Shown here piece after piece: positions 60,238 through 63,778 of a DNA stretch of 64,000 nucleotides (positions are counted from its first letter, which is position 1; the number at the start of each line of letters is the position of its first letter). Both the position numbers and the translations under genes were made by a program. Source of the stretch: Selenomonas ruminantium subsp. lactilytica TAM6421 (lineage in GTDB: Bacteria; Bacillota; Negativicutes; Selenomonadales; Selenomonadaceae); the NCBI RefSeq assembly GCF_000284095.1, contig NC_017068.1:2480001-2544000 (forward strand). Direction: 5' to 3'. The notes beneath the pieces were generated by a model. That model saw nothing but the letters and a program-made list of their open reading frames with translations, was not told the DNA's origin and made no database searches.

Positions 60238-60263
60238 AAAAAAGCCTCCCCCTATGGGGGAGG
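60238..60263 (-). terminator. Terminator after the SCIFF maturase (within a repeat element)
   Basis: Minus strand CCTCCCCC, ATA, GGGGGAGG, C, TTTTTTATT. Perfect 8-bp GC stem with six T residues. It forms the distal end of the palindromic element that follows scfB. Confidence 0.85.
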
Positions 60264-60359
60264 TGGCACACGTAAGTGTGACAAAAGGGGCTTAGTCAAT
60301 TTCCTTCCTTAAGCCCCTTCCACCGCTTACGCGGTTTCCCTCCCCCAAAAGGGGAGGCT
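60240..60359. repeat. Compound palindromic element, 120 bases
   Basis: Bounded by inverted AGCCTCCCC and GGGGAGGCT ends. Inside are CCTCCCCC/GGGGGAGG, CACAC/GTGTG, AAGGGGCTTA/TAAGCCCCTT and ACCGC/GCGGT hairpins. The right part (CCACCGCTTACGCGG, then TCCC, then AAAAGGGGAGGC) is related to the repeats at 18630 and 33915. Confidence 0.7.
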
Positions 60360-60385
60360 GTAGTCATCATAAATGATATTTATGC

Positions 60386-61786
60386 TTATGCTCTTTCGGC
60401 TTCTTTTTCCATTTTCTCCAGTTCCAGCATGGCCTGCACATAGATGGCACATTCCAGACGCTTCTTCTGGATCTCGCAACCCACTTCGTAGGGCTGGCGG
60501 ATATCGCCATGGAAGAGATCCGCATTGGCATGGCAGCCGCCGGAGCAGAAGAATCTCGACCAGCAGTCGCGGCATTTTTCCTTGTTGAGCACATGGCTTT
60601 CCCGGAAGTACTGGGGCAGTTTCATGTCCGTTACGCCCTCATCGAGGCTGCCCAAACGATAGCCTTCTCGGCCTACGAACTGATGGCAGGGATAGAGGTC
60701 ACCATTTTCCGCCACAGCGAAATACTCATGACCAGCACCGCAGCCAGACAGGCGCTTGGCCACGCAGGGGCCGTTGGAAAGATCCATATTGAAATGGAAG
60801 AAGAAGAAGCCCTTGCCCTCGTGATGGCGTTTCATATAAGCTTCGGTGAGCTTGTCGTATTCCGCATAGATGCGCGGCAGGTCTTCCTCCGTGAAGCCCA
60901 GCGGGCTGTCCTTCAGCACAACCGGTTCCATGGACAGGATATCGAAGCCCTCATCATTCATGGAGAGCACGTCCTTGGTGAAGTCCATATTGTTCTTCGT
61001 GTAGGTGCCGCGCAGGTAGGTGTAGACACCGCGGTAGTCCCAATCGCCGCCCTTGCGGGAATCCAGGCATTTATGGAAGTTCTTGATGGCCCGGTCATAG
61101 GAACCATTGCCGCCCACATCCGGACGCATGGCATCATGGACTTCCTTGCGGCCATCGAGAGACAGCACCAGCGAGAAGTCATTGTCATTGAGCCATTTGA
61201 TGTTTTCATCATTCAATAAGAGGCCATTGGTGGTCAGCGTCAGCTTGAACTTCTTGCCCGTTTCCTTTTCGCGCTGGCGGGCGTATTCCGTCACCGCCTT
61301 GACGGTCTTCATGTTGATCAGCGGTTCACCGCCGAAGAAGTCCATCTCAAGATGCTTGCGGGGACCGCTGCTCTTTATGAGGAAGTCAACAGCCTTTTTA
61401 CCCGTCTCGGGACTCATGATGGCCCGTTCCTGACCGTAGCTGCCACCATCGCCGAAGCAGTATTTGCAGCGCAGGTTGCAGTCCTGGGCAATCATCAGGC
61501 ACAGGGATTTCACGAGCCCCTTCTGCTTGAACGTCGGCGGCACATCAATGTCCGGGGCAAAGAGTTCGCCGGCATCCATCAGCGCATGGAGTTCATCCAG
61601 AGCTTCTTCCAGATCTGCCTTCTTATAGCTGTCCTGCCAAGCAGCGACGACAGCGGCATCATTTTCTCCGTCAAAGGTATCCATGATATCATAGATCATT
61701 TTATCGATAACGTGCACAGCACCGCTGTTGATATCCAATAATATATAGGTACCATTCTGCACGAATTTATGAATCTTAGCTTTCAT
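60386..61786 (-). CDS. scfB: SCIFF ranthipeptide maturase (radical SAM/SPASM)
   Basis: 466 residues. The radical SAM cluster motif is IAQDCNLRCKYCFGDGG near residue 100. The SPASM region near the C-terminus carries many cysteines (GCGAGHEYFAVAENGDLYPC; CRDCWSRFFCSGGCHANADL; VGCEIQKKRLEC) for two auxiliary clusters. It forms thioether links in the SCIFF peptide encoded 80 bases upstream; the C. thermocellum relative CteB links a Cys to a Thr. The first 90 residues are a RiPP-recognition-like domain (HKFVQNGTYILLDINSGAVHVID). A terminator separates it from the precursor gene. Confidence 0.95.
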   Translation of the reverse strand: MKAKIHKFVQNGTYILLDINSGAVHVIDKMIYDIMDTFDGENDAAVVAAWQDSYKKADLEEALDELHALMDAGELFAPDIDVPPTFKQKGLVKSLCLMIAQDCNLRCKYCFGDGGSYGQERAIMSPETGKKAVDFLIKSSGPRKHLEMDFFGGEPLINMKTVKAVTEYARQREKETGKKFKLTLTTNGLLLNDENIKWLNDNDFSLVLSLDGRKEVHDAMRPDVGGNGSYDRAIKNFHKCLDSRKGGDWDYRGVYTYLRGTYTKNNMDFTKDVLSMNDEGFDILSMEPVVLKDSPLGFTEEDLPRIYAEYDKLTEAYMKRHHEGKGFFFFHFNMDLSNGPCVAKRLSGCGAGHEYFAVAENGDLYPCHQFVGREGYRLGSLDEGVTDMKLPQYFRESHVLNKEKCRDCWSRFFCSGGCHANADLFHGDIRQPYEVGCEIQKKRLECAIYVQAMLELEKMEKEAERA

Positions 61787-61825
61787 TATAACTCCTAACT
61801 AACACAAAGCAGAAATAAAAGTAAA

Positions 61826-61850
61826 AAGCCCTCCCCAAGGGGAAGGCCCA
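61826..61850 (-). terminator. Terminator between the SCIFF precursor and its maturase
   Basis: Minus strand GGGCCTTCCCC, TT, GGGGAGGGC followed by TTTTT. Sixteen bases after the precursor stop and 40 before the maturase start, so it probably gives more precursor than enzyme. Confidence 0.85.
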
Positions 61851-61865
61851 TAATAAAGCAATTGC

Positions 61866-62003
61866 TTACTTTTCGCAAACCTGATTGCCTACCGTGCAGG
61901 AAGTCTTGCACGCGGACTGGCAGGAAGCCTGGCATTCGCCGCAACCGCCGGTTTTCAGGGTCTTCTGCATGGATGGTTTGTTGACCGTCTTGATGTGTTT
62001 CAT
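61866..62003 (-). CDS. scfA: SCIFF ranthipeptide precursor
   Basis: A 45-residue precursor of the Six-Cysteines-in-Forty-Five family. It begins MKHIKTVNK and ends CGECQASCQSACKTSC then TVGNQVCEK, with Cys at 21, 24, 28, 32, 36 and 43. Cys32 and Thr37 occupy the positions that CteB joins in the C. thermocellum peptide. The second of two adjacent ATG codons (62003) gives the family length and a seven-base gap to GGAGGG; the first (62006) would add one Met. The peptide is linked to signalling in some clostridia; its role here is unknown. Confidence 0.95.
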   Translation of the reverse strand: MKHIKTVNKPSMQKTLKTGGCGECQASCQSACKTSCTVGNQVCEK

Positions 62004-62041
62004 CATCTAGCCCTCCTATCAAAAAATAGAATCTTCTACAT

Positions 62042-62070
62042 AGTATAACGCGAAATACACGATAACACAA
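62042..62070 (-). promoter_or_regulatory. Promoter of the SCIFF gene
   Basis: Minus strand TTGTGT (62070-62065), 17-base spacer, TATACT (62047-62042). The leader to the start codon would be about 30 bases. Confidence 0.65.
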
Positions 62071-62107: not shown

Positions 62108-63034
62108 TTATTTCAGGAACCCGTTGACGATCTGCTCCTCGGCTTCTTTTTCCGTCAGTCCCAAGGTCATCAGCTTGATGAGCTGGTCGCCGGCAATCTT
62201 GCCGATAGCGGCCTCATGCACAAGCATGGCATCTACATTATTGGCCTCCAGCGACGGTACCGCCAAGATACGGCCTTCATCCATGATGATGGAATCGCAT
62301 TCCGTATGACCATGGCAGGCGGCATTGCCCACAATGCGCAGATCCAGCTTCTGATAGGACTTATCCTTGGCCACACCGCGGGACACCACATCGGCACTGG
62401 CATTTTCGCCATCCAGTGACACCTCGTATTCACTGTAAGCATACTGCGTGCCATGAGTCATCAGGCGTTCCCGCACAATCAGGCTGGCATCGGCCTTGAG
62501 ATTGGCCTTGGTGGTGCGGCTGGTGGAATCCACGCCCTTGATCTGCACCATTTCCATCTCCATGGAGCTGCCCGCTTCCATGGTTACTTCCGTGACCGGG
62601 TTCAGGATGCGCTGGCCATCGCCCTGACCGGAGCCATAATGCTTCTCCACATATTTGACCTTGGCATTCTCGCCTACAAAGAAGCGATGCACACCGTCAT
62701 GTTCCGAATCCTGATGACCGCAGTTGTCGATGCCGCAGCCGGCCACAATCACCACATCAGCCCCTTCGCCGATATAGAAGTCATTGTAGACTGTTTCCTT
62801 CAGGCCGCTTTCGCTCATGACCACCGGAATATGCACGCTTTCATTCTTGGTGCCGGGTTTGATGCGGATATCGATGCCGCTGCCATCCTCCTTGGAGGTT
62901 ATCTCGATATTGGCACTGCTGCTGCGGCCTACCGATTTGCCGTTGGCCCGCAGGTTATACGCCCCCTGGGGCACATCATGGAGGTCTGCCACCTCCAACA
63001 GCAGTCTTCTCTGTATTTCATCCATTTTTACCAT
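62108..63034 (-). CDS. SufB/SufD-like Fe-S cluster scaffold (minimal SUF/SMS type)
   Basis: A 308-residue SufBD-core protein, much shorter than SufB (about 465-490). It has the right-handed beta-helix pattern and the C-terminal block HGHTECDSIIMDEGRILAVP, then VDAMLVHEAAIGKI, which carries the conserved Glu and His of the family. GCGIDNCGHQDSEHDGVHRF supplies extra Cys and His. Only one such gene accompanies the SufC-like ATPase, as in the two-gene minimal SUF-like (SMS) systems of archaea and some anaerobes. No SufS, SufU or SufE is adjacent. GGAGAGG lies seven bases before the ATG. Confidence 0.88.
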   Translation of the reverse strand: MVKMDEIQRRLLLEVADLHDVPQGAYNLRANGKSVGRSSSANIEITSKEDGSGIDIRIKPGTKNESVHIPVVMSESGLKETVYNDFYIGEGADVVIVAGCGIDNCGHQDSEHDGVHRFFVGENAKVKYVEKHYGSGQGDGQRILNPVTEVTMEAGSSMEMEMVQIKGVDSTSRTTKANLKADASLIVRERLMTHGTQYAYSEYEVSLDGENASADVVSRGVAKDKSYQKLDLRIVGNAACHGHTECDSIIMDEGRILAVPSLEANNVDAMLVHEAAIGKIAGDQLIKLMTLGLTEKEAEEQIVNGFLK

Positions 63035-63049
63035 AGAGCGACCTCTCCT

Positions 63050-63778
63050 TTATTGAAACTTCCGGCACATGGGCATGCTGACCTCAGTGTCCATGATCTT
63101 GGGCAGAATAATATTCCCCGGACCCTGCTCCTGTACCCGGCCATCGGCCAGCACGATGATTTCATCGGCAATCTGCAGGATGCGTTCCTGATGGGAAATG
63201 ATGATAATGGAACTTTCCTGGATCTCATTGCGCATTTTCTCAAAGATGCGGATGAGGTTCTGGAAACTCCAAAGGTCAATACCTGCCTCCGGCTCATCAA
63301 AGATGGACAGATTCGTCTTGCGGGCCAGGATCGTAGCAATCTCAATGCGCTTGAGTTCGCCGCCGGACAGGGAGCTGTTCACTTCCCGGTTCAGATAATC
63401 ATTGGCACAGAGCCCTACCTCCGAGAGATAATCGCAAGCCTTGATATGGGAAATCTTCTTGCCGGCAGCCAGTCGCAGCAGGTCAATGACCTGCAGGCCA
63501 CGAAAACGCACCGGCTGCTGGAAGGCAAAGCTGATGCCCATCTGTGCTCTCTCGGTAATACTTTTATCGGTAATATCCTGTCCATCCAAATAAATCCGGC
63601 CGGAGGTGGGCTGCTCAATGCCCGCAATGATCTTGGCCAGTGTGGATTTACCACTGCCATTAGGCCCCGTGATGACCACAAATTTCCGATTGTCCACAGT
63701 CAGGCTCAGGTCCTGAATGATATCCACCTGACTGTCGCCCTCGGTTACATGGAAGGAAATATTCTTCAATTCCAGCAT
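63050..63778 (-). CDS. SufC-like ABC ATPase of Fe-S cluster assembly
   Basis: A 242-residue cytosolic ABC ATPase: Walker A GPNGSGKSTLAK near residue 39, Q-loop FAFQQPVRFRG, signature LSGGELKRIEIA, Walker B LSIFDEPEAGID, H-loop IIISHQERIL. The sequence around the signature and the EPEAGID tail resembles SufC. It lies 15 bases upstream of the SufB-like gene and should power cluster assembly on that scaffold. A TATAAT lies about 55 bases upstream, overlapping the terminator of the next gene. Confidence 0.9.
   Translation of the reverse strand: MLELKNISFHVTEGDSQVDIIQDLSLTVDNRKFVVITGPNGSGKSTLAKIIAGIEQPTSGRIYLDGQDITDKSITERAQMGISFAFQQPVRFRGLQVIDLLRLAAGKKISHIKACDYLSEVGLCANDYLNREVNSSLSGGELKRIEIATILARKTNLSIFDEPEAGIDLWSFQNLIRIFEKMRNEIQESSIIIISHQERILQIADEIIVLADGRVQEQGPGNIILPKIMDTEVSMPMCRKFQ

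Follow-up and report, generated by a model that had tools for sequence, protein, structure and literature searches.

The window analysed here is the whole 64,000-nt stretch of Selenomonas ruminantium subsp. lactilytica TAM6421 (contig NC_017068.1, positions 2,480,001 to 2,544,000). Judged by its sequence matches, it carries what is almost certainly a complete and ordinary SCIFF ranthipeptide system, encoded on the minus strand and composed of the following features:

62042..62070, minus strand: predicted scfA promoter, TTGTGT (62070–62065), 17 nt, TATACT (62047–62042), in a conserved block
62011..62017, minus strand: scfA ribosome binding site AGGAGGG, recognised by sequence and conserved in 9 loci of the genus
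61866..62003, minus strand: scfA, SCIFF precursor (matches to TIGR03973 and PF13165; canonical 45-aa start at the second ATG)
61816..61849, minus strand: predicted intrinsic terminator between scfA and scfB, 10-pair stem (61849–61826) and T-rich tail, conserved in its presence
60386..61786, minus strand: scfB, radical SAM/SPASM SCIFF maturase (TIGR03974, PDB 5wgg/5why, CteB cysteines)

Read from the first of two tandem ATGs (at 62006), the scfA open reading frame covers 61866–62006 of the minus strand and encodes 46 aa; the second ATG, at 62003, gives the 45-aa numbering used here. In this numbering the peptide contains C21, C24, C28, C32, C36, and C43, the six cysteines that the preliminary description had counted, together with T34 and T37. 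ScfA scored 88.7 bits against TIGR03973 (curated cut-off 50) and 88.5 bits against PF13165 (cut-off 27), and it was the one SCIFF match in the whole genome. ScfB reached 590.7 bits against the maturase model TIGR03974 (curated cut-off 425), and the look-alike model NF040492 (not_ScfB) found no support in it (548.7 against a required 855). The protein also matched PDB entries 5wgg and 5why over residues 3–453 (E 2.1e-155) and contained the Radical_SAM (50.1, cut-off 29.5) and SPASM (22.4, cut-off 21.5) domains; an N-terminal RRE is suggested by the alignment. The two genes lie 79 nt apart, and the training rule given in PMC5300114 places the maturase within 500 bp of the precursor. SCIFF is an already known system, and with both proteins far above the curated cut-offs, this copy had been correctly spotted.

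The closest known system is CteA/CteB of Clostridium thermocellum (thermocellin; PDB 5wgg, 5why), whose maturase is 52% identical to ScfB (231/444 positions). A cysteine occurs in either protein at 15 alignment columns, 13 of which, including the CX3CX2C motif, are common to both; the columns that differ are S229/C231 and C240/V242. The peptides of 74 Clostridia loci, which were picked out by their similarity to CteB and do not form a fair sample, include some from Acetivibrio, though not CteA itself. At residues 21–37 they are as in the window peptide except for Thr in place of Ala26, and at residue 39, where the window has Gly, 63 of the 74 have Ala. The window system also differs from CteA/CteB in its diderm host class and in its gene neighbours.

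By description, it can likewise be compared to Tte1186a/Tte1186 of Caldanaerobacter, for which PMC8326336 and PMC8172795 describe a SCIFF precursor with a Cys32–Thr37 link. The position of the thioether is disputed within these same accounts, as Cys32–Thr37 in vitro and Cys32–Thr34 on co-expression. Both candidate acceptors, Thr34 and Thr37, are present in the window ScfA and were invariant in all the peptides examined. The Cys32/Thr37 pair singled out in the preliminary description is therefore there as residues, but Thr34 is an alternative to it as the site of linkage. Freyrasin (PapA/PapB, Paenibacillus polymyxa) is likewise a ranthipeptide whose maturase is a related radical SAM protein, and it is described as containing six Cys–Asp thioethers (PMC8172795); ScfB scored 271.2 bits against the PapB model, below the cut-off of 340. 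By analogy with these relatives, and with Cys32, Thr34, and Thr37 all present, the window peptide would be expected to carry the radical non-alpha thioether typical of ranthipeptides.

Spread of the pair and its genomic surroundings

The occurrence of SCIFF in a Negativicute, which the preliminary description had treated as an oddity, turned out to be the rule in the class. The precursor was found in 341 of 380 Negativicute genomes and 97 of 102 genera, and in 227 of the 234 good genomes (completeness 90% or more, contamination 5% or less). Four of the 341 genomes had two matches, and the rest had one. Among sampled Clostridia genomes at least 90% complete, 169 of 196 carried SCIFF. The maturase gene was detected in 342 of the 380 Negativicute genomes (E up to 1e-60). 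At this threshold, and with 19 and 18 unlisted negatives identified by subtraction, both genes were present in 330 genomes, scfA only in 11, scfB only in 12, and neither in 27. Genomes less than 90% complete accounted for 8 of the 11 scfA-only and 10 of the 12 scfB-only cases. In the literature searched, no paper paired SCIFF, or ranthipeptide, with Negativicutes. The present analysis adds the spread of SCIFF through the Negativicutes examined, the recurrent promoter–terminator unit, the separation of the two genes in genus g11, and the absence from this genome of the export and output machinery that has been proposed.

A tree was built of 131 ScfB proteins, with 35 of the 73 Clostridia rows drawn at random, and the 96 Negativicute rows fell on one side of a branch with a support of 100. 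Its root is not fixed, and when the tree was divided at its midpoint, 12 Negativicute rows (families f32–f35) fell on the Clostridia side. Most families grouped together, f12 and f17 did not, and 37 of the 127 inner branches were open. On this tree, the idea that the lineage recently acquired the system from the Clostridia sampled was rejected; within the limits of an unfixed root, the tree fits an old and mainly vertical descent.

Scanning with family libraries identified GAPDH, a SufB-like protein, and a SufC-like ABC ATPase among the products of the genes adjoining the window locus. As the preliminary description had stated, no exporter or protease was recognised among the neighbours scanned in this way. 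The SufB-like (308 aa) and SufC-like (242 aa) genes occupy 62108–63778 and score below the curated SufB, SufD, and SufC cut-offs. A conserved tie to this upstream pair was considered and rejected, since among 53 large loci only the window's own has it; GAPDH was found by tblastn in 12 of the 53. When the four nearest ORFs to either side were considered, the preceding genes in 37 large Negativicute loci were YvcK-like in 17, WhiA-like in 16, and deacetylase-like in 13, and GAPDH followed in 9. Within the same span, a SecD/SecF-like gene was seen after scfB in 47 of the 74 Clostridia loci. The SecD/SecF-, YvcK-, WhiA-, and deacetylase-like names (GAPDH excepted) are ones that we presume from the appearance of the sequences. 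Among the clusters listed, no neighbour cluster was common in both classes. An Rfam RNA in the region was also rejected, as the sole match, to a microRNA model, reached 22.8 bits against a threshold of 53.5. Just after scfB, at 60238–60362, lies an imperfect palindromic element that recurs 13 more times in the genome, mostly as partial matches, and is thus a dispersed repeat; it may also end scfB transcripts.

A different arrangement was found in genus g11. In all 16 of the g11 loci first fetched (L002–L004, L006–L011, L014, L015, L020, L021, L028, L030, and L031), there was no scfB in the stretch around scfA, which mostly extended 1.5 kb to each side and whose downstream part was limited to about 330 nt in L003 and to about 720 nt in L014; L240 and L247 are further g11 loci listed. 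When 22 g11 genomes, selected for carrying scfA, were searched, scfB exceeded the cut-off in 19. In the 16 genomes for which both positions are known, the genes were on different contigs in 13, apart on the same contig in two (with scfB upstream in G155 and two ORFs between the genes in G166), and adjacent in one (G202). Because 19 of the 22 keep scfB even though it is mostly apart from scfA, the pair appears to be largely kept in g11 without linkage, and these separated genes provide a natural experiment on the requirements of the pair. A hairpin was present within 120 nt after the separated scfA in 15 of the 16 loci at a loose threshold (shuffles 21/80) and in 14 of 16 at −12 kcal/mol. Genome G187 holds a fragment of scfB. 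Genome G177, which is 99% complete, has scfA and no scfB over the cut-off; the core of this scfA is intact (locus L238, G177:C10:20000–32000), making it a candidate for either an orphan precursor or an assembly gap.

Promoter, terminator, and transcription unit

A block that includes the −35 and −10 hexamers and continues as far as the ribosome binding site was conserved in the nine aligned loci of the genus, even where the sequence further upstream differs, as between the window genome and its relative G244. A generic promoter scan did not list this promoter, because its −35 hexamer matches the consensus at 3/6 positions and the scan needs 4/6 per hexamer. Two promoter forms, written after viewing some Negativicute sequences and with no use of the Clostridia loci, were counted class by class. 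The looser form, TTG-N18 to N21-TANAAT, occurred in 75 of 111 Negativicute scfA upstream regions (shuffles 45/2220), in 0 of 110 stretches further upstream, and once before scfB in 96 loci; the strict form, CTTG[CT], occurred in 49 of 111 (shuffles 1/2220). This leaves 36 of the 111 regions without the looser form and 62 without the strict one. In Clostridia, the looser form was present upstream of scfA in 24/74 (shuffles 74/1480; before scfB 5/74) and the strict form in 12/74 (shuffles 4/1480). A plain consensus score separated only weakly, 10 points or more being reached by 13% of 112 upstream regions and by 3% of shuffles; the promoter in the window scored 8.5. Nevertheless, the block conserved in the genus and the class-wide promoter form together support the earlier proposal that the precursor has its own promoter, which by its sequence would be of the sigma-70 type.

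The preliminary description had also pointed to a strong terminator before scfB, and a terminator in this position recurs across both classes well beyond shuffled sequences. A terminator was counted as strict if its hairpin, on the sense strand, scored −12 kcal/mol or lower and was followed immediately by a T run. Such a terminator was found between scfA and scfB in 87 of 96 distinct Negativicute intergenic regions (shuffles 23/480) and in 62 of 74 Clostridia ones (shuffles 21/370). Counts on the other strand were 15/96 and 13/74, respectively, and those in equal stretches upstream of scfA were 7/96 and 2/74; nine Negativicute and 12 Clostridia intergenic regions had no strict terminator. At the loose threshold the figures rose to 91/96 for Negativicutes (shuffles 153/480) and 68/74 for Clostridia (shuffles 110/370), and the strict count is preferred because the shuffles often score at that threshold. 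The internal terminator is thus real in the sense meant by the preliminary description, but it is no speciality of this genome, being the usual layout in loci of both classes. Within one genus, the intergenic region is 263 nt in L025 and 65 nt in L024 (genomes G239 and G240), and the longer one contains an inverted repeat, recognised by eye, and no scored terminator.

Flanked by a promoter of its own and an intrinsic terminator, scfA has the layout of a short unit of one gene, and these sequence features make a transcription unit biased toward the precursor very probable. In such a unit, scfB would be made mostly by read-through past the terminator, and the peptide would therefore stay in excess over the enzyme. 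It is rather improbable that scfA and scfB are instead independent transcription units, the terminator being complete and scfB having a weak promoter of its own. The 10 pairs of the stem would suit such an arrangement, as would genus g11, in which scfB lies mostly elsewhere and would have to be transcribed without scfA. However, the scfA-type promoter forms occur before scfB in only 0, 1, and 3 of 96 Negativicute loci and in 0, 5, and 6 of 74 Clostridia loci, and 101 of 117 Negativicute loci keep the two genes adjacent, the median gap being 82 nt (both counts include the four repeat loci L001, L016, L022, and L024). For the precursor-biased unit, the steps that would follow are those known for relatives (PMC8326336): the ScfA leader would dock on the N-terminal RRE of ScfB, and ScfB would then join Cys32 to Thr34 or Thr37 in a radical non-alpha thioether.

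Constraint on the peptide core and the role of SCIFF

Conservation was assessed in 113 Negativicute peptides, the four repeat loci having been dropped. They represent 112 of the 341 genomes with SCIFF; one genome contributes both L027 and L199. Residues 27–37 (SCQSACKTSCT) were invariant in all 113 and in all 74 Clostridia peptides. The first peptide filter had demanded SACKTSC; a filter artefact was rejected as the source of this invariance when the search was repeated with the window ScfA and without that demand, as SACKTSC was present in all 193 loci hit. Six Clostridia loci had no usable scfA: the core was cut by a contig end in L165 and L168, and no core was found in the stretch examined of L119, L156, L161, and L167, the maturase starting 162 nt (L156) and 147 nt (L161) from the end of the stretch. 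Of 2576 core codons compared with those of the window, 940 differed silently and 66 changed the residue; selection acts on the peptide.

The core was also compared with ribosomal protein S12 in 24 Negativicutes and four Clostridia (G384, with no S12 match, and G383 were left out). Among the 24 Negativicutes, the mean pairwise identity of the core (C21–C43) was 93.1% against 88.3% for S12, and in 232 of 276 pairs the core was the more similar of the two. Comparisons between classes gave 87.5% and 81.6%, and 89 of 96 pairs favoured the core. Even so, the minimum for a pair was lower for the core (78.3%) than for S12 (81.3%). The whole of ScfA was less similar than its core (76.2% in Negativicutes, against the same 88.3% for S12, and 65.5% between classes) because the leader is loose (60.5% and 42.5%, respectively).

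The role of SCIFF is described as unsettled in the reviews consulted. According to the account in PMC8102284, when the genes for the precursor and the radical SAM enzyme were disrupted in C. beijerinckii, expression of sporulation genes fell strongly and that of the agr locus rose, and deletion work in a solventogenic Clostridium (Chen et al. 2020) was presented as quorum sensing. The preliminary description had called for a search for a distant exporter, and this was carried out for the double-glycine peptidase type, together with Spo0A and AgrB, by model searches of the window genome and of 66 genomes, a subset of the 341 that bear SCIFF. The C39 peptidase had 0 matches in the window genome and none in 34 of the 66; Spo0A was not found in the window genome or in 41 of the 66; and AgrB was not found in the window genome and was above the cut-off in four of the 66. 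With none of the three in this genome, double-glycine export and the Clostridium sporulation and Agr effects are unlikely to be its role here. In SCIFF genomes without those genes, the C. beijerinckii effects cannot be what the system has in common.

A signalling role between cells like that proposed for solventogenic clostridia, with the modified peptide leaving the cell through some general export route, therefore seems unlikely, even though the C. beijerinckii disruption phenotype speaks for it and a GG precedes the first core cysteine in 106/113 Negativicute and 58/74 Clostridia peptides. This glycine pair is changed in the other 7/113 and 16/74 (e.g., FESC, YADC), and the C39, Spo0A, and AgrB searches weigh in the same direction. 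Moreover, peptide signals usually show species specificity, which the invariant core does not offer. An antibacterial peptide that shapes gut communities, as suggested in PMC7738495 for pig-gut isolates with sactipeptide-like clusters containing a SCIFF motif, is highly improbable, since SCIFF occurs across the class, almost always as one copy per genome, its core hardly varies, the scan of adjacent genes recognised neither an exporter nor an immunity family, and the review PMC8326336 takes the wide spread as an argument against an antimicrobial role.

From the absence of one exporter type and from the conservation, we give roughly even weight to the proposal that the peptide acts inside the cell, most likely on a conserved partner. 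The comparison of genomes suggests that the thioether product would serve a conserved role with no need for a C39 exporter, sporulation, or Agr. As a whole, the locus is likely to be best explained by an ordinary SCIFF system with a precursor-biased unit and a probable intracellular action. More tentatively, SCIFF may be a core intracellular thioether peptide of anaerobic Bacillota and no secreted natural product, its core as strongly constrained as a ribosomal protein, its excess arising from the promoter–terminator unit, and the peptide bound to a conserved partner or metal. If this is true, the Negativicutes without C39 exporters, Spo0A, and Agr would expose the primary role of SCIFF; since SCIFF is near-universal in the class and yet many genomes are without sporulation, Agr, or C39, the Negativicutes are a good group in which to find that role.

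Some variation around the core was seen in particular families. In f32 and f33 (loci L048, L052, L053, L059, L090, and L094), the glycine pair is changed to EG, ES, AD, or AG, and the ScfA of family f32 has a longer tail after the last cysteine.
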